NCBI GenBank assembly: GCA_013820875.1
Contig: JACDHS010000037.1
Location: 1-39,615, forward strand
Length of the DNA stretch: 39,615 bases
From: Verrucomicrobiota bacterium
Lineage (GTDB): Bacteria; Verrucomicrobiota; Verrucomicrobiia; Limisphaerales; JACDHS01
Direction: 5' to 3'
The translations under genes and the position numbers were made by a program. Under the pieces are notes generated by a model, which was not told the origin of the DNA, did no database searches, and saw only the letters and a list, made by a program, of their open reading frames with translations. Positions 913 through 35,412 of the stretch are shown in pieces. Every line of letters begins with the position of its first letter. Within the stretch, counting starts at the first letter, position 1.

Positions 913-6057
<5,145 letters not shown>

Positions 6058-10378: not shown

Positions 10379-11164
10379 TTAATCTGCCAGCGCGCGAAGC
10401 AGAGAGCGAAGTTCATCTTCAATTTCGTCTGGAGTCGCGACCGTTTCCGCAATTCGTTCCCGCAGTCGCTTGCGATAACATTGTCGAATTCGATGAACCG
10501 CCACTTTCACCGCGCCCTCGTTCATGCCCAGCCGTTTTGCAAGATCGGCATAAGGAACCTGGCTGCGCTCTCCCATCAACGAAAAACGCAGCGCCTCGAA
10601 CAATTCGGCTTTTCCTTCCTGCGCGTAATCGTTCCGAAGATCATCGTAAACCTGCTCCAGCAAAGTCATCGCCCAGCGTTTCTCGAACAATTTCTCCGGG
10701 CTGAGCGCGTCGGCGGGTTGTTGCCGGTAGCGGGTTTCGGCAGAAGCGAGGTCCAACGGAATGAGAATTCCGCCATCGCGTTTTTGTGCACGGACCTTGT
10801 CCCATTCGTCCGACATAAAATGATTCATCGAAGCCAGCAGAAATGAGCGGAATTTGCCTTTATCACGATCGACCTGGGCCAACGCATTGCGTCGCAACAG
10901 CGCGAAGAAAAACCCCTGGGTCAAATCCTGCGCATCCTCGACGTTGCACCCTCGCCGACGCGCATAAGCGTAGAGCGGATACCAATATGTTTTGCACAGT
11001 TTCTCCAGCGCAAGATGGGCGCGATCGGTGTCGTGCCTTCCGGCGGTCAGCACCACGCTCCAATGTGTTGTGACGAAATAATTCAGCGGTTTGCTCCGTT
11101 CAGTGGAGGTTGTGATGGTTGTTGCCACGTGGCGGAGTTTATCTTCTGCGATGGAAAATCCCAT
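10379..11164 (-). CDS. ECF-type RNA polymerase sigma factor (sigma-2)
   Basis: A protein of 261 residues from the ATG at 11164, paralogous to sigma-1. It contains NYFVTTHWSVVL, TYWYPLYAYARRRG, a region-2 motif DAQDLTQGFFFALL, a KRDGG linker segment, and a C-terminal helix-turn-helix with YADLAKRLGMNEGAVKVAVH. A GTG at 11128 matches the position of the sigma-1 GTG start and is an alternative start; the 12 residues before it are not shared with sigma-3 or sigma-4. The gene begins 33 bp after K3 stops and ends 65 bp before K2 starts, so it could be cotranscribed with either. No anti-sigma partner is visible. The family call is firm; the exact start and the regulon are not. Confidence 0.92.
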   Translation of the reverse strand: MGFSIAEDKLRHVATTITTSTERSKPLNYFVTTHWSVVLTAGRHDTDRAHLALEKLCKTYWYPLYAYARRRGCNVEDAQDLTQGFFFALLRRNALAQVDRDKGKFRSFLLASMNHFMSDEWDKVRAQKRDGGILIPLDLASAETRYRQQPADALSPEKLFEKRWAMTLLEQVYDDLRNDYAQEGKAELFEALRFSLMGERSQVPYADLAKRLGMNEGAVKVAVHRIRQCYRKRLRERIAETVATPDEIEDELRSLLRALAD

Positions 11165-18102: not shown

Positions 18103-20832
18103 TCATTTGCGCGTTTCGAAAATCAGCAAATACGGCACGGCGACCTGGCCTTCATTATCGCGGAAATTCGTGATCTCACCTGAATTCAGCCAAATGCTGT
18201 AAACTTTGCCGGGCGTTAGCTTCACGGGAAGCACGCACGTCCGACCGTCAGCGAGATAACGCGGTGAGCCGGTCATCTTGGGAAACGTTTTATCGTCAAG
18301 TTTCACCCAGGACCAACTCCCATCCTGCATCGGTTCGCTGAAGGTGACGCGAAGTTCGTTCAGTGCCGGATCGATTTCGGAAGCACCAGACTCAGGCACA
18401 GTGCGGATGACTACAGGCGGAACAGTGCCAACAGCTTGAACAGTGGAAACAGAGAAAGGAACCGATCCCTCATTCAGAGCCTCGGTAACCGGCAAGGTCG
18501 CCGGTTTGCCCGGGTCACGTGCATTGAGACTCATCACTAAGGCAACTCCTCCCGCAACACCGAAGGCAGCCATCGCCACCAATGCTGCACCCCGAAAAGC
18601 GCGGCGTCCGAACCATAGGAATCCCACAATTAATGCAATTGTAGAAACGACCACCATGGCGACGGCGTTCCCCCACGCTGTGAGGAGGAGCAGCAGGATT
18701 ATGGCGACTGAAGCGAAAACGCCTGACTCCGGCATCCTGAGGGTTCTGCCAGAAACCTGGGTCGGCGCTGCTTTAGGCTGCGACTGTGCTGGATGAGTTC
18801 CGGAATGCTCGGCGGAAAATTGTGCATCGGAAATGATTTTCTGAAGCGCCTCGGTTTCCCGCGTGTAAATTCTCACGCGCAGACCGCTCGACCGATACCA
18901 TCCTGGCTCCGAGGCTTCTGAGATCGTTTCCAGGTAGCTTCCAAAAAATCCGCGCCCGACCGATACGCCCTTTAGGACGTCCACATTGGGTGCTTTGATA
19001 TCTTGCGAGAACCAAATGCTGAAATCCTGGTAGAGCAAACGAAAGATACTCGACACCACGATCACGCGCCGGTCTGTCACATAAAACCCAGCGTCCCAAA
19101 ATGGCGGAAACGAGAAGAAGAGTCGGTACCCTGGGATTGATTTGCTCGACATCGCCCAAAGCCACTTCTTGAAATGCAGCACACGCTCCCCCGGCAGCAG
19201 TGCTGGGTAAGGATTGAATCTGAATTGCAGGCCTGGTGTTTCGATAGGTGGTTTCGAATCGTCGGCGTCCCGCGAGGAACTAGTCGCATTGGGCTGCAGC
19301 GGTGCGCTGCCCGGAAGTTCCGGTAAACTGCCCCTGCTCAAGGTATACCTCCACCGTCGCGCAAGCAGCTCCGGCATGGCGACTCCGACCCGTTGCCCGT
19401 CTCGTAACTCCATGACGAACCCTTGCTTCCACCAGAGCCGGGTCCCGTTGAACCAGCGCACCTCCCTGATTAGGGCAATGTCCTCCAGATCCACCGTCAA
19501 TGCCGAACCCTTGATCGGAATTAACTCCAGTCGATCCCGATGCAACACCGCCAGGCCTGGCGACTGCATCGCTCCCATCACCATCAACGCTTCCGTCACC
19601 TCACCACTCGAACGCTGCAAAACCGACTTCAACCGACGAACCTTTTTTCCCACCGCTCCATAAATGGCGGCAAATGCAATCCCAACCAGCTCAAAAACTA
19701 AAAGCCACATTCCTTCCGGCCCCCAGTGCGACACGGCGATTGGAAGCGGCACGGCGATCACCACCAGCGGCACAAACAAGTAAGCCAATACAAAGGTGGG
19801 ATCCCATGGCCAGCAGTCGCGCCAACGTTTGATATACATTGGTCCACCCGCAGTTTTCCGATCCGGGGCGCCTGTTGTTGCTGAGATCGTCTCAACATCC
19901 GTCCTCACCTGGCTCGCATTCTGATAGCGGAGCCCTGGTTCTTTTTCCAGCGCGTGCAACACCACTTCATCCAACCGCACATCGATTTGAACTTTCTTCG
20001 ATGGCGGCGAAAACTTTCCGAGGGGCAATTCGCCCGTCAGCATTTCGTAGAACACAACACCCAACGAATAAATGTCCGCGCGATGATCCACGGTCGTGGG
20101 TTTCTCGATCTGTTCAGGCGCCATGTAATGCGGCGTGCCGATGGTTTGCTGTGCGCCGGTTAGATTTTCCTGGCCTTCTGTGCCGAGGATCTTCGCGATG
20201 CCGAAATCGGCGATCTTCACGCGGCCCTTTTTATCGATCAGAATATTTTCCGGTTTGATGTCGCGGTGAACGATTCCCTGGGTGTGGGCGAACTGGAGTG
20301 CGTCGCAAATCGGCGGCACGATGGCCAGCGCTTCTTCCGGCGAAATGTTTTGCGCGCGGATCAGGTCGCGCAGATTCACGCCGTCGATGAACTCCATCGC
20401 CAGAAAATAAAAACCGCTGCTCTCGCCGAATTCATAAACGCTGACAATGTTGGGATGACTGAGCTTCGCCAGCGCGCGTGCTTCGCGTTCAAATCGTTCG
20501 GCAAAGCGACCGCCATTCTGCGGGTCATGCGCAAGAATTTTCAGCGCTACCAAACGGTCCAGACGCGGTTGTCGCGCCTTGTAAACCAGCCCCATTCCTC
20601 CGCGGCCAAGGAACTCAATGATTTCAAAATGCGCGAAATGCTTTTGAACTTCAGATACCGGCAGTGGCACAATCGTGCGGAGAAAAACTTTGGTTCCTTC
20701 CGGTCCAAACTCCTCGGTTTCGGCCGCAAGATTCAGCGCCATGAGGCAACGCGGACACAAGCCCTCCGGCGCATCAGCCCCGAGCGGCAAACCGCAGCGG
20801 GGACATTTTCGGGCATCCGGAGAATCGTTCAT
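18103..20832 (-). CDS. Membrane Ser/Thr protein kinase K4 with PH-like and Big_5 domains
   Basis: A protein of 909 residues. The zinc ribbon is at C10/C13/C26/C29. A kinase domain (about 70-340) has GRGGMG at 77-82, lysine 98, HRD at 189-191, DFG at 209-211 and APE at 238-240. Its activation segment (GTEGQENLTGAQQT) is short and lacks the palindrome-encoded insertion of K1-K3. Two membrane helices lie around 345-397. Two stretches (about 405-490 and 520-680) look like bacterial PH-type beta domains, on weak evidence. A hydrophobic block at 697-767 probably crosses the membrane again. The C-terminus (about 800-905) is a Big_5 Ig-like domain with SEPMQDGSWSW, shared with the secreted protein two genes downstream. 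Sigma-3 lies 155 bp upstream. K4 is the most divergent of the four kinases. Confidence 0.95.
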   Translation of the reverse strand: MNDSPDARKCPRCGLPLGADAPEGLCPRCLMALNLAAETEEFGPEGTKVFLRTIVPLPVSEVQKHFAHFEIIEFLGRGGMGLVYKARQPRLDRLVALKILAHDPQNGGRFAERFEREARALAKLSHPNIVSVYEFGESSGFYFLAMEFIDGVNLRDLIRAQNISPEEALAIVPPICDALQFAHTQGIVHRDIKPENILIDKKGRVKIADFGIAKILGTEGQENLTGAQQTIGTPHYMAPEQIEKPTTVDHRADIYSLGVVFYEMLTGELPLGKFSPPSKKVQIDVRLDEVVLHALEKEPGLRYQNASQVRTDVETISATTGAPDRKTAGGPMYIKRWRDCWPWDPTFVLAYLFVPLVVIAVPLPIAVSHWGPEGMWLLVFELVGIAFAAIYGAVGKKVRRLKSVLQRSSGEVTEALMVMGAMQSPGLAVLHRDRLELIPIKGSALTVDLEDIALIREVRWFNGTRLWWKQGFVMELRDGQRVGVAMPELLARRWRYTLSRGSLPELPGSAPLQPNATSSSRDADDSKPPIETPGLQFRFNPYPALLPGERVLHFKKWLWAMSSKSIPGYRLFFSFPPFWDAGFYVTDRRVIVVSSIFRLLYQDFSIWFSQDIKAPNVDVLKGVSVGRGFFGSYLETISEASEPGWYRSSGLRVRIYTRETEALQKIISDAQFSAEHSGTHPAQSQPKAAPTQVSGRTLRMPESGVFASVAIILLLLLTAWGNAVAMVVVSTIALIVGFLWFGRRAFRGAALVAMAAFGVAGGVALVMSLNARDPGKPATLPVTEALNEGSVPFSVSTVQAVGTVPPVVIRTVPESGASEIDPALNELRVTFSEPMQDGSWSWVKLDDKTFPKMTGSPRYLADGRTCVLPVKLTPGKVYSIWLNSGEITNFRDNEGQVAVPYLLIFETRK

Positions 20833-20987: not shown

Positions 20988-21728
20988 TTATCCGGCCAGC
21001 ACGGACATCAGATACCGGACCTCCTCATCAATTGCTTCGGGGCTTGCAACCGTCTGCGCGATTTCCTGTCGAAATATCTCACGAAAGCGTTTTCGCAGGC
21101 GATGAGTCGCCACCCGCAGTGCGCCTTCAGTCATCCCGGCGGTTTTTGCAACTTCGGCGTAGCAAACCGAACTTTTCTCCGCCGTCAAAAAGACTTTGAT
21201 CATGTGAAACTCTTCGTTTTTGCCTGCGGCGGCGAAATCCTGTTTTAGCCGTGCCATCGTTGTGTCCAGCAACGTGAGTGCCCAAGATTGGTCGAACATT
21301 CTTTCGAGTGTGGAGAGCATCGGTGCTTCTGACTCGTAACGTGTCTCGGCCGTGGATGTTTCGAGCGAAACATGCGTTCGCGCGCCGCCGCGTTTCTGGG
21401 CCTGGGCACGATCCCATTCATTGGCTAAAAACCGTTTCAACGCCACGAGCAGAAAGGTGCGGAAGCGACCTTTGTCCCGATCGGCCGCTTTCAAATAATC
21501 TTTTTCAAGGAGTCGCGCGAAAAATTCCTGGGTGAGATCCTGCGCGTCATGCGACGACTGGCCGCAACGTCGCACATAGGCGTAGAGCGGATACCAATAA
21601 GCGCGGCAAAGCGTTTCCAACGCGGCAGCCGTTTGCGTCGAGGAATCCTGCCGCGCCGCGAGCACCACCGACCATCTCGTATGCGGAAAATTCTGAGACT
21701 TCACGCGGGATGTTGTCGTTTCGTTCAT
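20988..21728 (-). CDS. ECF-type RNA polymerase sigma factor (sigma-3)
   Basis: A protein of 246 residues. It has FPHTRWSVVLAARQ, AYWYPLYAYVRRCG, the region-2 motif HDAQDLTQEFFARLLE, and a C-terminal helix-turn-helix (YAEVAKTAGMTEGALRVATH). It ends LMSVLAG, and sigma-2 ends LLRALAD. The ATG at 21728 places the conserved RWSVVL motif near residue 18, as in sigma-4. It is encoded 155 bp upstream of K4 on the same strand, which repeats the sigma-then-kinase order of sigma-2/K2 and sigma-1/K1. No anti-sigma gene is present. No GTAAC promoter motif is seen before this gene, so it is probably transcribed differently from the kinases. Confidence 0.92.
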   Translation of the reverse strand: MNETTTSRVKSQNFPHTRWSVVLAARQDSSTQTAAALETLCRAYWYPLYAYVRRCGQSSHDAQDLTQEFFARLLEKDYLKAADRDKGRFRTFLLVALKRFLANEWDRAQAQKRGGARTHVSLETSTAETRYESEAPMLSTLERMFDQSWALTLLDTTMARLKQDFAAAGKNEEFHMIKVFLTAEKSSVCYAEVAKTAGMTEGALRVATHRLRKRFREIFRQEIAQTVASPEAIDEEVRYLMSVLAG

Positions 21729-22049: not shown

Positions 22050-22793
22050 TCATCCTCGCGAAAGCGCCTCGGCCAGATGCCGCAGTTCAGTATCCAGCTC
22101 CTCGCGGCTGGACAGGGTTTGTGAAATTTCCTCTCGATAAATCTCCCGAAAACGTTTTCGTAAACGATGCACCGACACGCGGGCTGCTCCCTCGTTGATC
22201 CCCAACCCCACCGCGACAGAGCCATAATCAATCGCGCCGCGCTCTGCCATGAGACACGTTTTGAGTGCTTCGAAATCGTTCTGTTTGCCAGCTGCGGCAA
22301 ATTCGTTCCGCAACCGATCGAGGGTAAGCTCAATTAGCGTCAGCGCCCATTGCTGATCAAAGACATCATCCGGACGGAGGTTCGCGGAAGCATCAGCAAC
22401 ATAACGGCTTTCGGCGAAAGCAGTATCCATCGGCACAGGAACCTCGCCGCCGCCCCGTTTCTGGGCGGAGGCGCGCCGCCACTCCTTGGCCATAAACTTT
22501 TTCAGCGCCACGATCAGGAATGTCCGCAACCGTCCCTTTTCCCGGTCGGCGGTATCGAGCCACTTTTTCTCGAGAAGCCGACAGAAAAATTCCTGGGTCA
22601 GATCCTGTGCGTCATGGGAAGAATGACCGCAACGGCGGACATGGGCATAGAGCGGATACCAGTAACTCCGGCAGATCATTTCCAGGGCCGCTTGTGATTG
22701 TGCCGAGGTCTCGCGACGAGCCTCCAGCACCACCGACCAGCGGGTCGGCGGAAATCGGTGAGGCAACTCTCTCGATGTCGCTCTTGGGGTCAT
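22050..22793 (-). CDS. Orphan ECF-type RNA polymerase sigma factor (sigma-4)
   Basis: A protein of 247 residues, closest in layout to sigma-3. It has FPPTRWSVVLEARR, SYWYPLYAHVRRCG, SSHDAQDLTQEFFCRLLEKK, and a C-terminal helix-turn-helix with YGSVAVGLGINEGAARVSVH followed by RLRKRFREIYREE. It is not followed by its own kinase: sigma-3 is next, after a 256-bp gap from its stop to the sigma-3 start codon region. It is the only sigma gene here preceded by the TGTAAC-N17-TAATTA promoter motif that the kinases carry, which suggests autoregulation by the same class of sigma factor. It may be the remnant of a sigma-kinase pair that lost its kinase, or a regulator acting in trans. Confidence 0.92.
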   Translation of the reverse strand: MTPRATSRELPHRFPPTRWSVVLEARRETSAQSQAALEMICRSYWYPLYAHVRRCGHSSHDAQDLTQEFFCRLLEKKWLDTADREKGRLRTFLIVALKKFMAKEWRRASAQKRGGGEVPVPMDTAFAESRYVADASANLRPDDVFDQQWALTLIELTLDRLRNEFAAAGKQNDFEALKTCLMAERGAIDYGSVAVGLGINEGAARVSVHRLRKRFREIYREEISQTLSSREELDTELRHLAEALSRG

Positions 22794-22945: not shown

Positions 22946-24607
22946 CTACGGTGCTGGCGGCGCCATTAATTTGCGATTCATTGCAAGGATCATTTTGTTA
23001 TTGGCGATGGCTTTGGCGCGAAATTCTTCAAACTTAAGCAGGTCTTCTTCAGTCAGAAATGAGCTGGCCTGGCTGGCAGCATTGGCATAAACCTCGTCCA
23101 TTAATTTTAAATTTCTTTCCTCATCTTGTTCGGAAGCGAAATTACGGAAATTCAGTGACGGAACTAACTGAAAATCAGGACTCAGCCCAGCCCTCGCAAG
23201 AGTCTGTATTGTTTCCTGCCGTAGCAGTTGATCCAGTTGTTTGGTTTTAGCATCTTTGGCCGCACTATCGCCGGTGAGCATCGATTTAAATTGTTGCGCG
23301 GTGACGGCGCCCAAGAGATTGCGGGTATAATCCTGATATTCATCCAGGTTCTCCTCCCCGAGCAGATCGCGTACTTGCTCCAGCAAAGCAACTTCCTGGG
23401 CTGCGAATACCTGGTCCATTTCCTCGGGCGTTTTGCCGTCGCGAAGAACCGCACAAATATGCTCAATATTTGTCATCACGTTGTCAGCGAGCAAAGTGTT
23501 CAGTTTCTCTGCCTGTTCTTTTGACAGTTTTAGTTCCTCGGCCAACTGTTTATAAATTTCACCGAGTGCAGCCTTCTGCTGGTCGCGGATCATTTTCATC
23601 ATTTCAGGATTTGCTGTGAGCCCGCTCATGGCACTCGGTTTGGGTATAGAAGCGGCAGTTCGCAAACTAGTGATCTCGCCCCGAGCCTTCAGCAACTCGC
23701 GCGAGGAATCGCTCGTTGCAACCGGGGCGGTTGTCGCTTGTGCGGACAGATTGGCGAGGCGTAGGTTATCCGCCTCGAGTTCGTTTATCCGTTGCACCTG
23801 TTGGCGCAAGGCAGCGCTTTCCTCACGTTGTTCTTTCAAAGCTTTTTGTTGAATGACCAAAGGAATGGCCACGGCGAGCGCCAGGGCTCCGACGATTGCG
23901 ATTTTGAGCTTCGTATTCATAATAGTTAAAAGAGTGAACGTTGTGGTGCCCGCGGTGGTAACTGCAACGCTCGCAAAGGCAGATGCTGCGATCCCGGCTG
24001 CCATTCCAACGGGGGCCGCGCTGACTGCTTGCGTGCTCAAGGCGGTTCCAAGGGAAGCAATCGAAAACACAACTCCTCGATGTTTTAAAAACAGGTGCAG
24101 TTTTTCAAGGGCGCGGTTCACCCGTTTGCGCGCGGCCTCCTCATTGCTTCCCAATGCTTCTCCCACTGAACGAAAGTCGCGCTGTTCGAAAAACCGCAGG
24201 AGAATCGCTTGTCGATCTTCGGTCCCGAGTTGGTTGATGGCTTCATCGAGAACTGGAGCCACGACCGTGAGGTTTTCTTCCGAGTGATCTTCGAGGGAAC
24301 TCATTTCAACGGCCTGCCTTTCGCGGTTTTCCCGACGGCGTTCGCCACGCATCAGGTTGCTGGCAACGAAACAGGTGTGACGATGCAACCAGCCACCGAG
24401 CATCACATTGGGGGACAATGTGCGAGCCAGTCGCGCAAGATCGGCAAAAACCGTTTGCGTAACATCTTCCGCCAGATGGGTGTCACCGTTGACCAGGCGT
24501 AATGCGGTGGAGTGAACCAGATCAACGTAGCGAGCGACCAATTCATGAAAGGCCGATTCCGAACCATTCTTCACGTACTCCGGGAGTAATTGTGGTGTCT
24601 CTGCCAT
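22946..24607 (-). CDS. Sigma-70-family factor fused to a membrane-anchored coiled-coil tail
   Basis: A protein of 553 residues from the ATG at 24607; a GTG at 24616 is an alternative start, but AGTGAAGAAA before the ATG fits a ribosome binding site. Residues about 15-90 are sigma region 2 (AFHELVARYVDLVHSTALRL, HLAEDVTQTVFADLAR). Residues about 120-175 are sigma region 4 (LLRFFEQRDFRSVGEALGSN). An alanine-rich hydrophobic stretch follows (about 180-225), then a clear membrane helix (IAIVGALALAVAIPLVI, near 235-252). A coiled coil comes next (to about 290), then a helical domain of about 250 residues. The tail presumably lies outside the membrane and senses something there, so the sigma factor is tethered by its own chain. 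The gene sits between sigma-4 and the M56/BlaI pair, on the same strand. Confidence 0.88.
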   Translation of the reverse strand: MAETPQLLPEYVKNGSESAFHELVARYVDLVHSTALRLVNGDTHLAEDVTQTVFADLARLARTLSPNVMLGGWLHRHTCFVASNLMRGERRRENRERQAVEMSSLEDHSEENLTVVAPVLDEAINQLGTEDRQAILLRFFEQRDFRSVGEALGSNEEAARKRVNRALEKLHLFLKHRGVVFSIASLGTALSTQAVSAAPVGMAAGIAASAFASVAVTTAGTTTFTLLTIMNTKLKIAIVGALALAVAIPLVIQQKALKEQREESAALRQQVQRINELEADNLRLANLSAQATTAPVATSDSSRELLKARGEITSLRTAASIPKPSAMSGLTANPEMMKMIRDQQKAALGEIYKQLAEELKLSKEQAEKLNTLLADNVMTNIEHICAVLRDGKTPEEMDQVFAAQEVALLEQVRDLLGEENLDEYQDYTRNLLGAVTAQQFKSMLTGDSAAKDAKTKQLDQLLRQETIQTLARAGLSPDFQLVPSLNFRNFASEQDEERNLKLMDEVYANAASQASSFLTEEDLLKFEEFRAKAIANNKMILAMNRKLMAPPAP

Positions 24608-24800
24608 TTTCTTCACTATTAAAGACCCGCCGAAGACGAAAAGCGGACAAAATCTTTTTGAGATGATGGAGGGAGGCTGGGTTTAGTGCAGACAACCCAC
24701 AGACATGCGCAGACATTCTTTTGTTTCAACTGCAAAAAGGCTCACGCGAAGTTCGCTGCAATGCTATATGCCAATCAGCAAAGTAGCGTACCCAGTTTGA

Positions 24801-27800
24801 TTACGGCGCATTTGGTTTGCTGTATTCGGCGTCAGTGCGCTCAATTTCCCGTTGCAGTATTCCGTCGAAAAGCCTGTTCGCTTCGGCTTCAGTGATGTTT
24901 CCGGCGCTTAGTTGTTCTCCAACTTTTAACCATTCCTCGAGACTGGTGGCTGACTGATCCCTGGTCCGCTGCCGGAACTTACCGGCAAGATCCCTGGCTT
25001 TAATCATCTGTTCAGGATTCATTTGCTCACCCAATGTTCGACGCGCCTCGGTCGATGCTTTCGCGAACTCTCCGTCCGGCGGACTAAGTTCCTCGGCAAG
25101 CGTCAGCCATTTGTAAGCCAGGACTTGATCCTTTGGCACACCCTCCCCTTCCGCGTAGAGGAGGCCCAGATAATATTGGGCTTTCACTTGATACCTTTCG
25201 GCGGCTCGCCGAAGCAACTGGAACGCTTCTCCATGGTCCTGGGGGACGCCTAAACCTTTTACATACAGTTGACCAAGAGAAGCTTGAGCACCAGGAAAGG
25301 TGCCATCCGCCGCTTTGCGATACCACTGTGCGGCCTGGCCATAGTTCCGGGCCACACCCAAACCTTCAGCGTAAAAATTGCCAAGCTTCTCCGAAGCAGC
25401 CATGCGAATGCCGCGCAACGCAACAGGGTGCGCATCCGGTTCTGGTGTTTCGGCAGCCTTCCGATACCAATGGACTGACTGGGTGTAGTCCTGGCGAACG
25501 CCTCTTCCTAATTCATAGGCACCAGCCACCAGGTATTGAGCGGAAACACTTCCCTGCTCAGCGGCTTTGCTGTTCCACTTGAAAGCTTTGACCGGATCTT
25601 TCCCCCGATACTGTGCCCCGAGAGTGACCTGTGCATCACGATCTCCGGCTTCGGCTTTCGTCTGCAATTCCTTGTCAATCATGACCTCCGACTCCGCTGC
25701 CCCAGTCCCATTGAGTTTTCCCGCGTCGGATAATGCTTTCTGAATTCGGGCGTCACCCCTCGGGTCAGGCCCTTTGGCGAAAGCGGCGGTGGGATAGGCG
25801 CGATCCATTGTCAGTGTGTTCTCCGGATCATCCAATCGGTCCACACAGATGTTCGGGAGACTGAACGAGAACGAAGAAAGAGAAGTGGTAAACAAGCCAG
25901 GGTAGATGCGCTCTCCATTCACCACCACGACAAAGCCAAGTCCCTGGACCGGCGGTCTGGGAAGGCGCGCCCGAATCGGACCACGGAAATGCAGTCGGTG
26001 CTCTTTCCAATCGTAGCTGTGCAGGTCGGTGTCGGAAATGATCGGGTCGTCCATGAGCGGAACACTTTTCCAATCGCCAGATCCGGACGCAGCCAACCTG
26101 GGATCAATCGGTTGCTTCATGAGATAAATCCCGAAAGCTTGCGTCTCCGCGTTAAGTTCCTTGGGTCTGCCGGGAGCTTTACTGGCCGCCTCGTGGATGG
26201 AGTTAGCTGTCGCTTCAGCCTCCGCATGGGTGAAATTTCCGGTTATCTGCAGCCTGCCTCCTTGAATTACTCCCTGAATGTTGGGCGCTGTAAGGAGCTT
26301 GTTGTTGAAGATAATTGCAAGTTGGTTTCCGATATTTTCCTTTGTGATCTCAGCAAAACGTTTGCTTCCATCAGCAGTGAGATATATCTCCACCTCCCAG
26401 TTGGTTGAGAAAGGGTTCTGTTGCGTAGTAGCCTTGAGAACCATGCTTTCATCGAGCAACACGTCCCGTTGCACACGGTATTCCTGCCCGGCAACGTCTT
26501 GCATCAAATCCAACGTTGTCGCGAGTTCGTACTCTTTTGCCACCAGACTGAATCGCAGAACCGGGGGTTGTTCCTGCTCCGGCGCATCCGCAGTCGATAA
26601 GGCCTCAGAATTGCCTTCATCACGACGAACAAGCGGAACCTTTTCGAATACGATTTCTTTGCCCCAGATCCTGTCCACATCAGGATGCTTCTCCATCATA
26701 CGGGGATTGGGCGTGAGAATAACATCCGCCGTTCGGGCGTCCGGATCCAATGCCTCGACCAGAATGGTTTGTTTCAACTGACTGGTGCGATAAGAAGTGA
26801 TCGGCCCGGAAGGAGACTGGATGGTTATGGTTGGCGTTCTGTAAAGTTCCCCGCCCTCGTAAGTGCGGCCTGCGATGCGAAGCGCCACGTTGAAACCGAA
26901 CGGTACATTCAGCGCCTTATCGAGTCGGAAATTGATTACCGCTTTGGTGGCCTTGCCCGCTCCGCCGACGGTGATCTCTCCGACGGATAATCCACTTTTC
27001 ACACTCGTTTCCAGTGCGGGATCTTCGATCAAACGAACAATCACCGCATCTTTTTCATAGACAAACAATTCAGCCTCGGTGGCTCGCATCCATTGCACTC
27101 GCGGTGCCGGCCAGCTTTCGAACGCTTCTCTACTTTCCATTTTCGTCGGAGCTGGCACCAACAAACTCGAAATCTCACAACGCAAGATGTACTTGCCGGG
27201 CGCCAGTGGAGGTAATTGCAGGGTTCCCTGAAACTCAGGATAATCAGCGACCCGAGCTGTAGGAAACAAACTCTTTACCTCGACCGATTGACCATTGATC
27301 GAAACGGATCGCATCTCGTTGAGCAGAATAAATCCAAACAGGTCCAGATCATTTTTCCACTGCACCACCAACCAAAACGTTTGGTCCGTTTCCCGCAAAC
27401 GTGGCAGGCCCAGAGGGAGTGGATCACCGTGATAGGCCTGCGCGAGCTCAACCATTTTTTCTTCCGAAATCAACCCTTTGGCATGCAGGGGAGCAATCGT
27501 TTCATGGTGAATTCGTTCCAAAGGCTTTCCTTGAGTTTCGTATTGGGGATGCTCGGACATCAACTCGAACAACCCGGTCATGATCAACTCTGCCTGGGGC
27601 GCTGTAATCTCGTTATCTCCGGCGCGTTTTTTCAACTCCTGCCATGCCCAGGGTGATCCTGGCTCATTGATACCAATGCGAATCACTTTTTCTGTTGATA
27701 GTTGCCGCAGCAATCCGGGTTGCGAAGCCAGCCAGCTATCCATCGCTCCCGATTTGTATTCTTCTTTTGCCCTGCCCTGGAGAAGGAACACGGCACAAAC

Positions 27801-28829
27801 AATCACGCTGAGCACAAGCGCACCGCTCATCCATTTGCCGGCACGTCTTCCCTTTTCCGGTGGGTGGTTGAACAGACGCTGGATCCGCCCGAGCAACGAA
27901 CCGTCGCTGGCCGCAAGCGCCAAAGCTGGTCCATGGCGAAGTGCTTCCAGGGTAGCCAGGGCGCGCGCGTAAGAAACCGCATCACCAGACAACTCGACCG
28001 CGACATCATCACAGCAATGCTCGCGCTCGTGGCGAACCTTTTTCGAAATCCACCAGATGGCAGGATGATAAAAGAAGAGAATCTCCAGCATGCTTTGGAG
28101 CAGGTTGACCACAAAATCATGCCGGCGGATATGGGCCAACTCGTGAACCAGGATAGCTTCCAGTTGACCCGGAGTGAGCCCGATCAGGCTGCTCGCAGGA
28201 AGCAAAATGACAGGCCGAATCCATCCAATAACAGTCGGAACTTCGACCATTGCCGATTTCAGCAACTCGACGGTGCGAGTGATGCGCAACCGTTGTTTCA
28301 AATCGTCCAGCGTTTTCTGCAGAGGACCGGTCGCGTCTGCCACCCCGCTGCGCACCAACTTGCGCAGGTAGAGCCAACCCGTCAGAAATCGAATCGAAAG
28401 CACACTGACACCGAATAACCAGGCGATGACAAACCAGGGTAACGCCAACTGCATCTGTTCGTCGAACGTTCGCGGTGATTTGGCGACATTCCCCACCCTC
28501 GATTGCACTTCAGGCACGGGAACTTGAACGGCTGCTGCTGCTGCCATCGGTGGGATCAACTCGACCGCAGGACCGCTGGTGGGCTGAACTTGCTGCGTCT
28601 GAGTGACCGTCGGGCGCAAAGAAAATTCCCCCGCCTGGATACAGAAAGTAATTACCGGCAAAATTATTGCGAAAACCAATGCGACGCAGCCCGCCACATA
28701 ACGTGCATTCGCGGAACGATTTTGCAGAACGAACTGCGCAACCGCAAACAGCGCTGCCAGCACGGCACCCTGCCAGATGAAATGTAGCAGCGTCCACCCA
28801 ATCGATTGAACAAGATGGACCAAAGTCAT
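24801..28829 (-). CDS. M56-family (BlaR1-like) metallopeptidase with SecD-like and Sel1 extensions
   Basis: A protein of 1,342 residues. The N-terminal M56 part has membrane helices near 10-35, 43-65, 128-150 and 333-350. The zinc motif is HELAH at 229-233, followed by HEREHCCDD at 267-275. In BlaR1/MecR1 this domain transmits a signal that leads to repressor inactivation. The long C-terminal sensor part is unlike a penicillin-binding domain. Residues about 755-875 resemble the SecD P1 head (LTADGSKRFAEIT, GNQLAIIFNNKLLTAPNI, QITGNFTHAEAEA). Residues about 1,050-1,260 are Sel1-like repeats (AQYLVAGAYELGRGV, AQASLGQLYVKGLGV, AQYYLGLLYAEGEGV). The start overlaps the repressor stop as ATGA, so the two are translationally coupled. 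The 184-bp gap downstream of the sigma-fusion start (24617-24800) shows no other feature. Confidence 0.92.
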   Translation of the reverse strand: MTLVHLVQSIGWTLLHFIWQGAVLAALFAVAQFVLQNRSANARYVAGCVALVFAIILPVITFCIQAGEFSLRPTVTQTQQVQPTSGPAVELIPPMAAAAAVQVPVPEVQSRVGNVAKSPRTFDEQMQLALPWFVIAWLFGVSVLSIRFLTGWLYLRKLVRSGVADATGPLQKTLDDLKQRLRITRTVELLKSAMVEVPTVIGWIRPVILLPASSLIGLTPGQLEAILVHELAHIRRHDFVVNLLQSMLEILFFYHPAIWWISKKVRHEREHCCDDVAVELSGDAVSYARALATLEALRHGPALALAASDGSLLGRIQRLFNHPPEKGRRAGKWMSGALVLSVIVCAVFLLQGRAKEEYKSGAMDSWLASQPGLLRQLSTEKVIRIGINEPGSPWAWQELKKRAGDNEITAPQAELIMTGLFELMSEHPQYETQGKPLERIHHETIAPLHAKGLISEEKMVELAQAYHGDPLPLGLPRLRETDQTFWLVVQWKNDLDLFGFILLNEMRSVSINGQSVEVKSLFPTARVADYPEFQGTLQLPPLAPGKYILRCEISSLLVPAPTKMESREAFESWPAPRVQWMRATEAELFVYEKDAVIVRLIEDPALETSVKSGLSVGEITVGGAGKATKAVINFRLDKALNVPFGFNVALRIAGRTYEGGELYRTPTITIQSPSGPITSYRTSQLKQTILVEALDPDARTADVILTPNPRMMEKHPDVDRIWGKEIVFEKVPLVRRDEGNSEALSTADAPEQEQPPVLRFSLVAKEYELATTLDLMQDVAGQEYRVQRDVLLDESMVLKATTQQNPFSTNWEVEIYLTADGSKRFAEITKENIGNQLAIIFNNKLLTAPNIQGVIQGGRLQITGNFTHAEAEATANSIHEAASKAPGRPKELNAETQAFGIYLMKQPIDPRLAASGSGDWKSVPLMDDPIISDTDLHSYDWKEHRLHFRGPIRARLPRPPVQGLGFVVVVNGERIYPGLFTTSLSSFSFSLPNICVDRLDDPENTLTMDRAYPTAAFAKGPDPRGDARIQKALSDAGKLNGTGAAESEVMIDKELQTKAEAGDRDAQVTLGAQYRGKDPVKAFKWNSKAAEQGSVSAQYLVAGAYELGRGVRQDYTQSVHWYRKAAETPEPDAHPVALRGIRMAASEKLGNFYAEGLGVARNYGQAAQWYRKAADGTFPGAQASLGQLYVKGLGVPQDHGEAFQLLRRAAERYQVKAQYYLGLLYAEGEGVPKDQVLAYKWLTLAEELSPPDGEFAKASTEARRTLGEQMNPEQMIKARDLAGKFRQRTRDQSATSLEEWLKVGEQLSAGNITEAEANRLFDGILQREIERTDAEYSKPNAP

Positions 28830-29203
28830 TTCTCCTCCATTTGGTCGAGTAATTTTCGAATCTGCTGCAACTCTTCTCGCGAGGCTTTTTTGCTCGAAAG
28901 AGCCTGCATCACTAATTTCTCGGCGGAGCCCCCAAATGCCTTGTCCAATAGATCGGAGACGAGTTGCCGTTGCGTTTGCTCTTCAGCAAGTGCGGCAGTG
29001 TAAATGTGAGTTCGGGCCGAAACATCCCGGGTGACAAGGCCCTTATCAGTCATGATCTGCAGCAGCTTCAGCACAGTTGTGTAACCGGTGCCACCATTCA
29101 GTTTATCGTGGATCTCCCGCACAGTGCTGGCGCCGTCACTCCAAAGCACCCGCAGAATCGAGAGATCTCCATCAGTGGGACGCGGTAAAGGCAAATTTTC
29201 CAT
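28826..29203 (-). CDS. BlaI/MecI/CopY-family winged-helix repressor
   Basis: A protein of 125 residues from the ATG at 29203 (MENLPLPRPTDGDLSILRVL). The winged helix covers about 8-75: TDGDLSILRVLWSDGASTVREIH, then GYTTVLKLLQIMTDKGLV, the recognition helix and wing typical of BlaI/MecI. The C-terminal half is the dimerisation helix region in which BlaI proteins are cleaved or released on induction. A TTG at 29218 would add five residues and place the start against the first operator, so the ATG is preferred. It is the first gene of a two-gene unit with the M56 peptidase (ATGA overlap). Two operator-like palindromes lie directly upstream, which indicates autorepression. Whether the inducer is a beta-lactam is unknown. 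Confidence 0.93.
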   Translation of the reverse strand: MENLPLPRPTDGDLSILRVLWSDGASTVREIHDKLNGGTGYTTVLKLLQIMTDKGLVTRDVSARTHIYTAALAEEQTQRQLVSDLLDKAFGGSAEKLVMQALSSKKASREELQQIRKLLDQMEEK

Positions 29204-29216
29204 TGGATATTCAGAC

Positions 29217-29256
29217 AATGTACGAACACATTCGTATTGTCAACGAACACATTCGT
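29217..29256 (-). promoter_or_regulatory. BlaI-type promoter with two palindromic operators
   Basis: The palindrome TACGAA-CACA-TTCGTA is at 29221-29236, and ACGAA-CACA-TTCGT recurs at 29243-29256. The centres are 21 bp apart, two helical turns. On the minus strand a perfect TTGACA (29243-29238) lies between the two palindromes. A TACATT (29222-29217), 15 bp further on, could serve as a short-spaced -10 box. A repressor bound to both sites would cover the promoter of its own gene. Confidence 0.75.
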
Positions 29257-29314
29257 ACTTAAATGGAAATGAACCTGAACCGGAAGGATTCAGAGCCTAA
29301 AACCGCAGTTTAAC

Positions 29315-29440: not shown

Positions 29441-29541
29441 CTTTTACGGGCAAATGGCCACTCTGCGGGAGCCGCACACATACCTTTTACCGTTAAAAGG
29501 TCACTCGGTGGGAACCGCACGCATGCCTTTTACCGGTCACC
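29441..29541. repeat. Imperfect 43-bp tandem repeat upstream of the PfkB gene
   Basis: One copy spans 29456-29498 and a second 29499-29541, matching at about 33 of 43 positions. The tail of a preceding copy (CTTTTACGGGCAAAT) is visible at 29441-29455. Shared core words are GGGA(G/A)CCGCAC and CCTTTTACCG. A frame can be read through it, but it resembles no protein. The remaining DNA up to 29719 shows nothing further. Confidence 0.7.
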
Positions 29542-29719
29542 GTTCATTTTTGGGACTTTCGTGGCTCAGCGCCTATCATTTTGCATTGAACTGCCGTTAT
29601 CTGAGACTAGTCCCCCTCTTCCATTTCTCGCTTCACCATTTCAAATCCAGTGTCTCATCCCTGATCAGATTAGCTTCTCTGATTGCCTTTTTATTGTTTG
29701 CCGCGTTAGACTGACCTAC

Positions 29720-31007: not shown

Positions 31008-31688
31008 TTACGAGGATAGGCAGAGATGTTTGACACTGGCTGGGAGGACGATCGTGTTGCTTGCACTCATCACACCCACGACATTCTTGAGGAGAGAACT
31101 CGTTTTCGCGAGGTCTATATGGCCAGAGACCAACGCTCCAGGCCCCGGATGGACCACCATGACATCCACATCTATTGCGCTCATCTTCTGCGCGTCCTGC
31201 TCTGAAAAACCGGTGCCGACCACCAACAGGCCAAGTTCCTTTGCCTGATTCAGCATCGCGACCTCCTGGTCGTAACTAATGTGGCTGTGCTCAAGATGGG
31301 CGCGAAAAGCGCCATCGATCAATCCCACACTCGGCCAGTTCTGCACACCAATAAATCCGAGTTCTTTGATCTGGTGCAACAGCTTTGACGGAATGCGAAA
31401 GGGATCCGTTCCGCAGAGACCAGCCACCACAGGGTAACGTTCAATGAGTTCCCGGTAGAGTTCGGCATTGTGCAAAACTTTCGCATTGGCATTGTCCAGT
31501 GGCAGAAGTTCGGCAGCCGGATGGAATCCAGGAGATGCAGAGGTGTGATCCAGCAGTAATAAGTCTGCACTGGCAAGGTCTTCTGGTGAGGTCGCCAGCG
31601 CACAAGTAATCCGGCGAAATTGAATGGCTTCCCCGGCTTCGCTCTTCCGAAGCAAGCGGGTTTTTAGTGCTGCGGGAGAGAGTTTCAT
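31008..31688 (-). CDS. TIM-barrel PEP_hydrolase-family protein (stand-alone)
   Basis: A protein of 226 residues, belonging with the family called PEP_hydrolase or TIM-br_sig_trns (PF09370). Visible are barrel strands and turns such as YPVVAGLCGTDPFRI, ELGFIGVQNWPSVGLIDG, LGLLVVGTGFSEQDA and VDVMVVHPGPGA. The N-terminal half of the neighbouring sigma-54 activator has the same arrangement (FFGVCAQD, GFAGITNFPSVIFFDGEYR, GLMTIGFCLSLAEA). The ATG at 31688 overlaps the activator's stop codon as ATGA, so the two are translationally coupled. The longer open frame upstream (to 32189) only shadows the activator gene. It is probably cytoplasmic and may make, degrade or buffer the small molecule sensed by the activator. 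Enzyme activity in this family is not established for bacterial members. Confidence 0.85.
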   Translation of the reverse strand: MKLSPAALKTRLLRKSEAGEAIQFRRITCALATSPEDLASADLLLLDHTSASPGFHPAAELLPLDNANAKVLHNAELYRELIERYPVVAGLCGTDPFRIPSKLLHQIKELGFIGVQNWPSVGLIDGAFRAHLEHSHISYDQEVAMLNQAKELGLLVVGTGFSEQDAQKMSAIDVDVMVVHPGPGALVSGHIDLAKTSSLLKNVVGVMSASNTIVLPASVKHLCLSS

Positions 31689-33442
31689 TTCTCGTCGCTC
31701 CTGGGAGATTGCAGCCAGTTGTAAATGGTTTTGCGTGAGACGCCGAGTTCGCGCGCGGCGGCGAGTTTGTTCCCGCGATTCCTGGCGAGCGTTTCCATGA
31801 GGCGATCTCGCGGATCCGCTTCTGAATGAAAACCTTTTTCGCTTCTGCCGAGCAGATGGCGGTCGAGCAGGAAAAGTTCTTCGAGCCACTCCAATGAAAC
31901 TGGTTTTCCACGACCAATGATGAAGCAATGTTCCATGGCATTCTTGAGCTGGCGGATGTTCCCCGGCCAGGAATGACAGACGAGGGCTTGCATCACAGAG
32001 TCGGAGATATGCGGCACCGGACAGCCATAGACGTGACTGAATTCCTGCATCATTTCGTGGACATGAAAGGGAATGTCTTCGCGACGCTCGCGCAACGATG
32101 GAATCCGCAGAACCACGGTGCTCAGACGATAGTACAAGTCCAACCGAAACTTCCCGTCCGGAATAAGTTCGCCAAGCTCCTTGTTGCAAGCGGCAATGAG
32201 TCGCACGTCCACGCGTATTGTTTTTTGGCCGCCGACACGTATAAGTTCATGCTCCTGCAAGACCCGCAGCAGACTGGCTTGCACCGATAACGGCAAGTCG
32301 CTCACTTCATCCATGAACAATGTGCCAGCGTTGGCCATTTCGAATTTACCGAGATGAACGCGGTTTGCCCCTGTAAACGCCCCTTGCTCATGGCCGAAGA
32401 GTTCAGACATCGCGAGACTCTCTGTCACCGCGCCGCAATTCCAACTGACCAACGGTTTGTCCTGGCGGGAACTCAACCGATGAATTTCCCGAGCCACCAA
32501 TTCTTTGCCCGAACCACTTTCCCCAAGAATCAGGATGGGTGCGTTCGACTCGGCAACGCGCCTGATTTTCTCGAACAACTCCTGCATCGGTTCACTGCGA
32601 CCGATCATCGCGCCCAATCGGTCCATTTGTTTACCGGCCTGCGCCATCATTTTGAATTCACGGACCGTTTGCGTAATGATCGGCGCAGCGGGGAAACGTT
32701 CGATGGTGCTGCCGCCAACGTAACCCAGCGCATCGGTTCGTTGATAGACCTGTGCGGTATCCTGTGGCAAAAGAACCGGCCCGCTGAGAACGACGAGGAA
32801 GGCGTCCGGATTAATTTTCTTAACAGCAGCGACGGCTTGGTTGATCACTTGGATGGCGTCGTCCAATGCTTCCTGATGTGCCAGGTCGTCTGGTGGTTGC
32901 CATTCTGCAAAGCCGAGATCCAGGCAAATGATATCGACATTCGCCTGCGCCAAATCTCTTGCCTCAGCAAGGCTCAAACAGAAGCCGATGGTCATCAAAC
33001 CGTGTTTGCCCGCTTTCTTTAGCAGTTCGACTTCTTTGGCAAAACCAAGGCCAGCCGATTCAAGCGCCTCACGATATTCACCGTCGAAAAAGATGACGGA
33101 TGGAAAATTGGTGATGCCAGCAAAGCCGTAATCTTTGGCCTCTTGCAGTTTGGCATCCCAATCCATTGAAAAATCCTGAGCGCAAACCCCAAAGAAGAGC
33201 GGGATGTTGCGGATGCACGGGAGCACTTGCTCGATGCCAATTTGCCAGGTGAGAGCATTGGAATTGGCAAATGGCAAAAGAGCAGCCATTGAGCTTCGTC
33301 CCTGCAGGCGAAAATGGCCGGCGGCAAGCACCATCAGCAGATCCGCGCCGCCAGCTTCAGCCGCCTGGGCGGACATGCCGGAGCCAACTGCCGCCCCGAC
33401 GAGATGTTCGCGCCGGGCAATCTTTTGCCGAAGCTGGTTCAT
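31685..33442 (-). CDS. Sigma-54-dependent activator with an N-terminal TIM-barrel sensor
   Basis: A protein of 585 residues. Residues 1 to about 268 are a PEP_hydrolase/TIM-br_sig_trns barrel (HLVGAAVGSGMSAQAAEAGG, GITNFPSVIFFDGEYR, VLSGPVLLP). Residues about 277-505 are the AAA+ domain with Walker A GESGSGKE (near 304), the sigma-54 contact loop GAFTGA (near 356), Walker B GTLFMDEV and the arginine-rich IPSLRERREDI. Residues about 545-580 are a Fis-type helix-turn-helix (NKLAAARELGVSRKTIYNWL). It should bind an enhancer, hydrolyse ATP and open sigma-54 promoters; the barrel presumably senses a metabolite. No receiver domain is present, so phosphorelay control is unlikely. The gene is divergent from the PGRP amidase, which has a near-consensus sigma-54 promoter, and is coupled to a stand-alone barrel gene downstream. 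Confidence 0.95.
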   Translation of the reverse strand: MNQLRQKIARREHLVGAAVGSGMSAQAAEAGGADLLMVLAAGHFRLQGRSSMAALLPFANSNALTWQIGIEQVLPCIRNIPLFFGVCAQDFSMDWDAKLQEAKDYGFAGITNFPSVIFFDGEYREALESAGLGFAKEVELLKKAGKHGLMTIGFCLSLAEARDLAQANVDIICLDLGFAEWQPPDDLAHQEALDDAIQVINQAVAAVKKINPDAFLVVLSGPVLLPQDTAQVYQRTDALGYVGGSTIERFPAAPIITQTVREFKMMAQAGKQMDRLGAMIGRSEPMQELFEKIRRVAESNAPILILGESGSGKELVAREIHRLSSRQDKPLVSWNCGAVTESLAMSELFGHEQGAFTGANRVHLGKFEMANAGTLFMDEVSDLPLSVQASLLRVLQEHELIRVGGQKTIRVDVRLIAACNKELGELIPDGKFRLDLYYRLSTVVLRIPSLRERREDIPFHVHEMMQEFSHVYGCPVPHISDSVMQALVCHSWPGNIRQLKNAMEHCFIIGRGKPVSLEWLEELFLLDRHLLGRSEKGFHSEADPRDRLMETLARNRGNKLAAARELGVSRKTIYNWLQSPRSDEK

Positions 33443-33476: not shown

Positions 33477-33572
33477 GATATTTTACCCAGAAGTCAACAA
33501 TGGGAAACAATCGGAAGGTCGAGAACAGGAACAACTGCCTGTAAACAGCATGATTTTGTCAATTTATACAAC

Positions 33573-33589
33573 TTGGCCCATGGCTTGCA
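33573..33589 (+). promoter_or_regulatory. Sigma-54 promoter of the PGRP amidase
   Basis: TTGGCCCATGGCTTGCA matches the consensus YTGGCACGRNNNTTGCW, with GG at -24 and GC at -12 exactly 12 bp apart and one change (C for A) in the -24 box. Transcription would start near 33600, leaving a leader of about 70 nt before the ATG at 33670. Confidence 0.8.
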
Positions 33590-33669
33590 TCTATAAAGAT
33601 GATCCCTTGGAAGCTACAGCGCCAAGCTGTGTCTTTCTTAAAGATCAAAACCAATCCAAAAGGAAACCC

Positions 33670-35412
33670 ATGCCAAAACTAAAAAAACTAAACACAGCCC
33701 TGTTGACGATAACAGGAACATTGTTGCTCGGCACTGCCGCAGAAGCTGCCCAGGGCCCTCAACCCACAATCTGCACACGTCCTTGCTGGGGTGCCCGTGC
33801 TCCCAGCGGCATTACTTATATGAGCGCGCTCTCCCGTGCGATCGTCCATCACACGGCTGGCACCGGTGATTGGACCACAAACTTTGAAACGGCCAAAGCC
33901 AGGGTGCGTGGCGCACAAAATTATCACATGGATGTGAATGGCTGGGGGGACATTGGTTATCACTTTTTAGTCAGCGCCGGCGGTCACATTTTTGAAGGTC
34001 GGCACGCTTCCATGGGCAGTTTGCCGCGCGGCGCCCATGATGGTTGCAACGCCAATAGCTTCGGCTTCACTGTGCTGGGCTATTATCACCCGCCTTACAA
34101 CCAGTCCTTCACATCTGCCGCACGGAACTCATTGGAAGCCGTCATTGCATGGAGAATGCCATCAGCCTGGTCGCCCTATAACTCCGACTCCTACTGCTCA
34201 AAGACCATTGGCACTCTGGATGGTCACTATAAGGTCAAATCTACCGCCTGTCCGGGGGATGTGATCATCCCGCAACTTGCGGGTATTCGGAATGGAGTCA
34301 ACGCAAAGAAGAGTGGTTGCGACATCAACATGACCGGGGGTGCTATTCGGGCGAAATATGAGTCACTCGGCGGTTGCGGTTCATTCCTTGGAGCGCCAAC
34401 TACTTACGAGACAGCAACACCAGATGGTGTCGGACGTTACAATCATTTCCAAAACAACGGTTCGATCTATTGGACTCCTGCGAACGGCGCGTGGTCCATT
34501 TGGGGAAATATCCGAACGAAATGGTCGCAACTTGGTTGGGAAGGCGGCGTCTGCGGGTATCCGATCACGGATGAAAACACTGCGCCGGACGGCGTCGGCA
34601 AATACAATCATTTCGACAAAGGTTGCTCGATCTACTGGACCCCTTCCACTGGCGCTAACCAGGTGGGCGGAGCGATCCGGAACAAGTGGCAAGCTCTCGG
34701 CTGGGAGGGTGGCATCTGTGGTTATCCAACAACCGACGAATCACCCGCTGCTGATGGTGTTGGTCGCTATAATCATTTCAGCAAAAACAATAGTTCCATC
34801 TATTACCATCCAGCCACAGGCGCCTGGTCGGTGCAAGGCGCCATCAAAACCAAATGGGCAAGTCTCGGTTGGGAAACGAGCTGCCTGGGCTACCCGGTCA
34901 GTGACGAATACGCCTGGAACGGCGGACGTCGCAGCGATTTCCAACATGGTTATATCTTTTACAGTGGCGGGGTCGCGACCTCAAGCTGTGGCGAACTGCC
35001 GCCTGCTGTGGATGTGGTGCTTGATAATAACCAACCGGGCTTCTCCGTTATCGGCACAGCGTGGTCAACCGGTACCAGCGCTGCCGACAAATACGGAGCG
35101 GATTACCGTTTTCGTTCCACCGCTGCTGTCAGCGAACCAGCCACCTGGGCGGCAAGCCTGTCTGCTTCTGGAAATTACGCGGTTTTCGCGTGGTGGGCCC
35201 AGGGAGCCAATCGATCCGCGACCGCGCCGTACGTAATCTATCATACCGCAGGTTCTACCACGGTGAACGTAAACCAGCAGATCAATGGCGGTAAATGGAA
35301 CGGGCTGGGCACATACAATCTCGCCTCGGGTAATAACGAAGTGAAATTGTCCTGCTGGACAACGACCGGCTATGTCGTGTTGGCTGATGCCATCCGCTGG
35401 CAGCAGCAGTAA
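33670..35412 (+). CDS. Secreted PGRP/amidase_2-type N-acetylmuramoyl-L-alanine amidase with LGFP repeats
   Basis: A protein of 580 residues. The signal peptide (about 1-28, cleavage near AEA-AQ) is followed by a PGRP/amidase domain (about 35-215). The first zinc-ligand histidine is in AIVHHTAG, a conserved tyrosine in QNYHMDVNGWGDIGYHF, and further ligands in GHYKVKSTACPGD (His and Cys), so catalysis looks intact. Residues about 223-440 are four LGFP-type repeats (LGWEGGVCGYPITDE, DGVGKYNHFDKG, SIYWTP), known mainly from actinobacterial cell-wall proteins. Residues about 445-580 resemble a golvesin-type beta domain (VDVVLDNNQPGFSV, YGADYRFRST). It would cleave the lactyl-amide bond of peptidoglycan outside the cell. 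The ATG at 33670 has AAAAGGA 5 nt upstream, and the signal peptide starts there. It is probably under sigma-54 control. Confidence 0.9.
   Translation: MPKLKKLNTALLTITGTLLLGTAAEAAQGPQPTICTRPCWGARAPSGITYMSALSRAIVHHTAGTGDWTTNFETAKARVRGAQNYHMDVNGWGDIGYHFLVSAGGHIFEGRHASMGSLPRGAHDGCNANSFGFTVLGYYHPPYNQSFTSAARNSLEAVIAWRMPSAWSPYNSDSYCSKTIGTLDGHYKVKSTACPGDVIIPQLAGIRNGVNAKKSGCDINMTGGAIRAKYESLGGCGSFLGAPTTYETATPDGVGRYNHFQNNGSIYWTPANGAWSIWGNIRTKWSQLGWEGGVCGYPITDENTAPDGVGKYNHFDKGCSIYWTPSTGANQVGGAIRNKWQALGWEGGICGYPTTDESPAADGVGRYNHFSKNNSSIYYHPATGAWSVQGAIKTKWASLGWETSCLGYPVSDEYAWNGGRRSDFQHGYIFYSGGVATSSCGELPPAVDVVLDNNQPGFSVIGTAWSTGTSAADKYGADYRFRSTAAVSEPATWAASLSASGNYAVFAWWAQGANRSATAPYVIYHTAGSTTVNVNQQINGGKWNGLGTYNLASGNNEVKLSCWTTTGYVVLADAIRWQQQ

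Follow-up and report, generated by a model that had tools for sequence, protein, structure and literature searches.

The 39,615-nucleotide (nt) stretch analyzed here (contig JACDHS010000037.1 of a Verrucomicrobiota bacterium, order Limisphaerales), called the window below, encodes a BlaR1-type membrane peptidase of family M56 next to a BlaI-type repressor, and it raises the question of what such a pair senses when no penicillin sensor can be found in it. Switches of the BlaR1 type are familiar chiefly for sensing antibiotics, and the classical BlaR1 scheme is described in PMC7593790. The pair in the window is probably a proteolytic derepression switch of the BlaR1/BlaI type in which a swappable ectodomain has replaced the beta-lactam sensor, so that input would enter through a module with a known class of ligand in SecD, the P1 head. 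The type of switch is already known; what is new here are tandem operators, a P1 head shuffled across signaling chassis, and repeated label changes on a tree of M56 domains. The features are collected in Table 1.

Residues 778 to 879 of the peptidase match the Pfam family SecDF_P1_head (PF22599) with an E value of 4.8e-25 (88 bits versus a cutoff of 27). The isolated head retrieves SecDF by sequence from the Protein Data Bank (PDB; 3aqo, E value of 3.2e-9), and a profile built from 12 such heads retrieves it with an E value of 2.6e-28. A model of residues ~760 to 895 was built from the window sequence and one Lentisphaerae homologue, with a predicted local distance difference test score (pLDDT) of 69 and a predicted template modeling score (pTM) of 0.61. 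The ten best Foldseek matches of this model in the PDB are all SecDF/SecD chains (3aqo, E value of 1.1e-4; template modeling scores of 0.44 to 0.56 by query), and the eleventh follows only at an E value of 0.8. Pfam score and fold thus both place the domain among the SecDF P1 heads. Comparison of 15 SecD heads of the order with 27 transducer-borne heads shows that core residues of SecD are kept in both sets, namely, G821 (15/15 and 27/27, respectively), F825 (15/15 and 26/27), A848 (15/15 and 25/27), P849 (15/15 and 26/27), and G864 (15/15 and 26/27). The remaining SecD-conserved columns are looser in the transducer heads; for example, position 845 is leucine in all 15 SecD heads, whereas valine is the commonest residue in transducers (13/27).

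The head is found on several kinds of proteins. A profile built from transducer heads (A1) was run against 293 genomes of the order with up to 14 candidates scored per genome, and the counts are therefore minima; the loci examined comprise the best non-SecD matches and some weaker ones, classed with our own profiles, with ten proteins checked by Pfam. P1 heads occur on at least 10 M56 proteins (that of the window and those of loci L126, L138, L139, L141, L149, L150, L155, L157, and L160, the contig of the last containing a run of N), on at least 12 serine/threonine (Ser/Thr) kinases (L008, L124, L125, L127, L128, L129, L142, L143, L144, L146, L147, and L152), and on at least three extracytoplasmic function (ECF) sigma factors with a hydrophobic segment (L140, L145, and L153; L159 is remnant-like). 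Kinase L008 comes from the source genome of the window, and L124 has two P1 heads; L151, where the open reading frame (ORF) with the P1 match overlaps a kinase ORF, was left out of the kinase count. Small proteins carry the head as well (L131, L133, L158, L161, L163, L164, L165, and L166), several of them with an N terminus that by eye resembles a signal peptide or that of a lipoprotein, and at three loci (L132, L162, and L168) the genome search gave a P1 match to which no ORF was assigned. In the transducers, membrane segments are predicted between chassis and head and none beyond it; within the stretch examined, no segment of L150 or L157 exceeds the threshold. By its distribution and the predicted topologies, the P1 head has been shuffled among M56 proteins, Ser/Thr kinases, and ECF sigma factors as a module that lies past the membrane segments where any are predicted. 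The M56 protein of L157 (positions 2349 to 5969, minus strand) carries, besides its P1 head, a Secretin domain (PF00263, E value of 7.8e-26), which adds another part related to secretion to an M56 chassis; the C terminus of a source-genome M56 protein (L010, 1871 to 4477, minus strand) resembles L157 by eye.

A further M56 protein with a head lies outside the order, in a Lentisphaerae metagenome-assembled genome (L015), and its head together with the next ~150 residues (385 to 655) matches kinases of the order as a single block. Among 34 genomes of loci retrieved by protein search, mostly from other phyla, the L015 genome alone has a P1 match of transducer strength. Of 288 genomes of its phylum, 14 have P1 matches at an E value of ≤1e-29, most of them SecDF-like by frame length, L015 and one 170-amino-acid (aa) frame being exceptions. 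A literature search limited to open-license papers found no P1 heads on signaling proteins.

In a tree of 68 heads, in which the L015 head was entered twice (as L015 and L186), the window head falls among kinase-borne heads, nearest to that of L143 (45% identity; group support of 84). This group stands apart from the main SecD group (support of 96, starred), which includes L157 and two small proteins. The label "SecD?" in this tree denotes any P1 protein of >330 aa without another chassis match and is therefore also borne by the truncated or broken transducers L148, L151, L154, and L156; the tree is unrooted, and a direction of transfer, from SecD to transducers or the reverse, is not readable from it. 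A tree of 52 M56 domains, made by a quick method, with long branches and covering about half of the protein-search contig loci, needs five changes of the head label, at least four of them forced by starred branches; rows cut by contig ends (e.g., L016) may be wrongly scored as headless.

The head is one of four parts of the ectodomain. The module in front of it, here called LINK, is unnamed; it has no match in Pfam or among PDB sequences but also occurs in the Ser/Thr kinases L122 and L123 of the order (31 to 36% over ~390 aa), two proteins that bear it without any P1 head found. In the L123 kinase (2429 to 5797, plus strand), a Peptidase_M23 domain stands between the membrane part and LINK. 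Behind the head follows a second unnamed module, POST, without a match in Pfam, which also occurs within a 258-aa protein with a hydrophobic N terminus (L136) and is matched by open frames of 179 and 182 aa in two more genomes. The C-terminal part belongs to the Sel1 family, with five stretches (E value of 1.4e-34, 117.7 bits versus a cutoff of 30.7). A single-sequence structure model of residues 355 to 1075 was unusable (pLDDT of 39.6). With this many parts, and with LINK present on two kinases where no P1 head was found, the head might be a passive spacer or serve protein-protein interaction in general, with LINK, POST, or the Sel1 repeats as the real sensor. Against this, the head recurs on three chassis with the SecD core residues kept, and in L150 it is the first part of the ectodomain, directly behind the M56 domain; we consider this reading unlikely, though worth keeping in view.

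The initial annotation had proposed, from the sequence, a classical pairing of M56 domain and BlaI with a SecD-like head and at least four Sel1-like repeats in place of a penicillin sensor. All of these observations are confirmed, including the proposed structural match of the head to SecDF, and the inventory was right as far as it went but had missed LINK, POST, and the operators described below. Its interpretation, that the signal comes from the envelope or from secretion and not from beta-lactams, is partly supported.

The chassis itself is of the familiar kind. Peptidase_M56 covers residues 30 to 300 (E value of 1.3e-33, 116.9 bits versus a cutoff of 31) and includes an intact HExxH zinc motif, as in family M56, and BlaR1 is the only PDB sequence matched by this part at an E value of ≤0.001 (8exs/8exp, E value of 1.6e-9, residues 135 to 275). 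Hydropathy gives strong hydrophobic stretches at residues 12 to 36, 39 to 71, 126 to 153, and 330 to 355 and a weaker one at 200 to 218. Because lysines and arginines flank the last segment on its N-terminal side, the ~990 residues beyond it are predicted to lie on the outer side of the membrane, by analogy with the topology of BlaR1. This nearness of the M56 domain to BlaR1 models, and the history of the BlaR1/BlaI family, would speak for beta-lactams or cell wall damage still being sensed through an unrecognized site. The C-terminal penicillin-binding or class D-like domain of BlaR1/MecR1 was not found, however, with no transpeptidase or penicillin-binding family in Pfam at an E value of ≤1; the protein scores far under the cutoff of the NCBIfam BlaR1 equivalog (99/400 bits), and other modules cover nearly all of the ectodomain. 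Beta-lactam sensing was accordingly rejected, and a residual role of this kind seems very improbable. The other two M56 proteins of the source genome likewise have no penicillin sensor discernible by eye, and going by these sequences an M56 protein without one is in itself not unusual.

The gene upstream of the peptidase encodes a repressor of the Penicillinase_R/BlaI family (E value of 1.5e-25, 90.2 bits versus a cutoff of 22.6), and its end overlaps the start of the peptidase gene by 4 nt. It stays below the CopY/TcrY cutoff (TIGR02698, 53/122 bits). CopY repressors carry a cysteine motif, and the repressor of the window, which is without any cysteine, therefore lacks it. The absence of cysteine from the repressor speaks against a metal, redox, or cofactor switch like cyanobacterial PetR/PetP (no search of the ectodomain for metal-site motifs was made), and such a switch seems hardly credible, even though BlaI/M56 pairs with signals other than beta-lactams have precedent (PMC7896320). 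Also very improbable is that the peptidase, as a relative of SecD, acts in secretion, since its matches to the SecD family (TIGR01129, 64/244 bits) are confined to the head at residues 778 to 885, with no further SecD part and no predicted membrane segment, let alone a membrane bundle, after it, and since a SecDF encoded elsewhere in the source genome has a P1 head of its own (C61; a further protein, C27, has a weak P1-like stretch of 23 bits).

Directly ahead of the repressor gene stand two putative operators, an exact palindrome TACGAA-N4-TTCGTA and a copy with one mismatch; together with the Penicillinase_R domain, a palindrome ahead of its own operon places the repressor with BlaI/MecI. 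In the 5.70-Mb source genome the exact palindrome occurs once, ahead of this blaI gene, with ~0.25 copies expected from base composition, but it occurs 58 times in the 821,257 bases of 79 related loci (L013 to L091), retrieved by protein search of genome contigs, where 60 control palindromes with permuted half-sites average 0.017 copies. For this reason the repressor-peptidase operon is probably a self-repressing circuit. Of the 63 loci at which our profile detected a BlaI ORF, 30 have an exact copy ≤300 nt upstream of the BlaI domain and 33 have none there. The palindrome stands ahead of BlaI-M56 operons of several phyla, at some loci in two or three copies 23 to 57 nt apart, and so marks BlaI-M56 circuits across these phyla; no paper describing it was among those listed by one literature search. 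It is also present ahead of the P1-bearing pairs L150 and L015. With up to three mismatches allowed, it is absent ahead of blaI in the P1-bearing loci L126, L138, L139, L141, and L149 and in the other two pairs of the source genome (C64 and C197); the scan covered only the first 40 bases of L160, and no BlaI was found at L157. Judged by its absence ahead of several P1-bearing pairs, the operator goes with one lineage of BlaI repressors rather than with the P1 head. A search of the genome for further targets of the operator gave no excess over chance, with 159 sites at no more than two mismatches versus 182 for the reversed pattern. The tentative promoter in Table 1 was not reported by a consensus promoter scan.

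In a switch of this type, the repressor would at rest sit on its own promoter, as in BlaR1/BlaI. Binding of a ligand to the ectodomain would lead the M56 domain to cut the repressor, as the overlap of the two genes and knowledge of the BlaR1/BlaI family suggest, and the cut would turn on the repressor-peptidase operon (autoinduction) and perhaps the ECF sigma factor gene behind it, which is possibly cotranscribed. The P1 head would most likely serve as an input module that binds a ligand or a partner and that has been inserted into several signaling chassis in the course of evolution. Its ligand may plausibly be an exported or unfolded polypeptide, our favored first guess, because the P1 head of SecD is a substrate-binding subdomain that binds the translocating polypeptide (PMC7793623 and PMC11470409). 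Several points weigh against this account. The three other parts of the ectodomain could be the sensor. Inner support in the head tree is weak (6/64 branches starred). One-mismatch operator sites outside the operon number 4, versus ~9 expected genome-wide, and none stands out (one lies just upstream of a 323-aa ORF, L173, and three lie inside ORFs). Finally, P1-bearing M56 genes number at least 2 among 68 PF05569 matches over the cutoff (in 30 of 58 related genomes, with some genes split into two matches), and an M56 protein with a P1 head is, on this count, a rare variant.

A wider proposal is doubtful and put forward only tentatively, namely, that in this order the polypeptide-binding head of the SecD type has become an interchangeable periplasmic sensor for proteolytic M56/BlaI derepression, Ser/Thr phosphorylation, and membrane-anchored ECF sigma factors, which together would signal how heavily protein export is loaded or that it has failed. 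If true, it would amount to an unfolded-polypeptide or secretion-stress network made from a part of the export motor. A head common to kinases and sigma factors, with its class of ligand known in SecD, offers a concrete, testable guess on what these uncharacterized signaling proteins sense.

The window also contains four Ser/Thr kinases and five ECF sigma factors, all on the same strand, the last being the one next to the peptidase gene. Chassis types that share the head thus adjoin here, which would ease exchange; the four kinases of the window themselves have no match to P1, LINK, or POST. The kinase at 11198 to 15559 has a weak match to signal peptidase S26 (E value of 1.6e-4), just under the cutoff. 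Elsewhere in the window, the gene at 31685 to 33442 (minus strand) encodes a sigma-54 activator that has a Fis-type helix-turn-helix and is fused to a PEP_hydrolase-like domain, and that at 33550 to 35412 (plus strand) encodes LGFP repeats and a golvesin C-terminal domain. A degenerate, repeat-like noncoding stretch was seen by eye at 29450 to 29560, where the repressor gene is separated from a divergent pfkB-type kinase gene, whose real start is probably well inside the listed ORF.

TABLE 1 Positions of the peptidase, its parts, and neighboring elements in the window
Feature	Position	Strand	Basis or remark
M56 (BlaR1-type) membrane peptidase gene	24801..28829	-	1,342 aa, ~990-aa ectodomain
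Zinc-binding HELAH, residues 229-233	28131..28145	-	Aligned with BlaR1 of PDB 8exs/8exp
Last membrane segment, residues 330-355	27765..27842	-	Hydropathy; K/R-rich N-terminal side
Module LINK (unnamed), residues 355-744	26598..27767	-	Matches in two Ser/Thr kinases
SecDF P1 head-like domain, residues 755-885	26175..26567	-	Pfam, profile, PDB sequence and fold matches
Module POST (unnamed), residues 894-1041	25707..26150	-	Profile/sequence matches elsewhere
Sel1 repeats in five stretches, residues ~1070-1287	24969..25622	-	Pfam
BlaI-type repressor gene, likely start ATG at 29203	28826..29218	-	Penicillinase_R, Pfam
Tentative promoter (TTGACA and a weak CATTGT, with operator 1 filling the 17-nt spacer between them)	29215..29243	-	By eye
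Operator 1, exact TACGAA-N4-TTCGTA	29221..29236		Motif search; binding predicted
Operator 2, one mismatch, 21 bp from operator 1 (center to center)	29242..29257		Motif search; binding predicted
ECF sigma factor with membrane segment (by eye), next gene downstream of peptidase	22946..24616	-	184-nt gap
Ser/Thr kinases of the cluster	913-6057, 6963-10313, 11198-15559, 18103-20832	-	Pfam
ECF sigma factors interleaved with the kinases	6129-6884, 10379-11164, 20988-21728, 22050-22793	-	Pfam

Compared with BlaR1/MecR1 and BlaI/MecI of Staphylococcus and Bacillus, the pair in the window has the same M56 domain with HExxH, the same coupling to a BlaI repressor gene, a predicted ectodomain behind the last membrane segment, and palindromes ahead of the repressor gene. 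It differs in the ectodomain, which consists of a SecD-type head, Sel1 repeats, and two unnamed modules and has no penicillin-binding domain. Staphylococcal BlaI/MecI operators are of the TACA/TGTA type, unlike the TACGAA-N4-TTCGTA of the window. PetP/PetR of cyanobacteria is likewise a BlaI/BlaR1-family pair with a signal that is not a beta-lactam; it controls a copper-iron protein swap (plastocyanin/cytochrome c6), to which its signal is tied, and the parts of the source drawn on here do not mention a SecD-type head (PMC7896320). With the P1 head of SecD/SecDF (PDB 3aqo, 3aqp, 5xan, and 5xap) the window head shares fold and core residues, but it is detached from every other part of SecD and joined to a signaling protein. 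The Ser/Thr kinases of the order, which often adjoin ECF sigma factors, share the same P1 head (at least 12) or, in two others, LINK; their output is that of a kinase, whereas that of the peptidase in the window would be proteolysis of a repressor.

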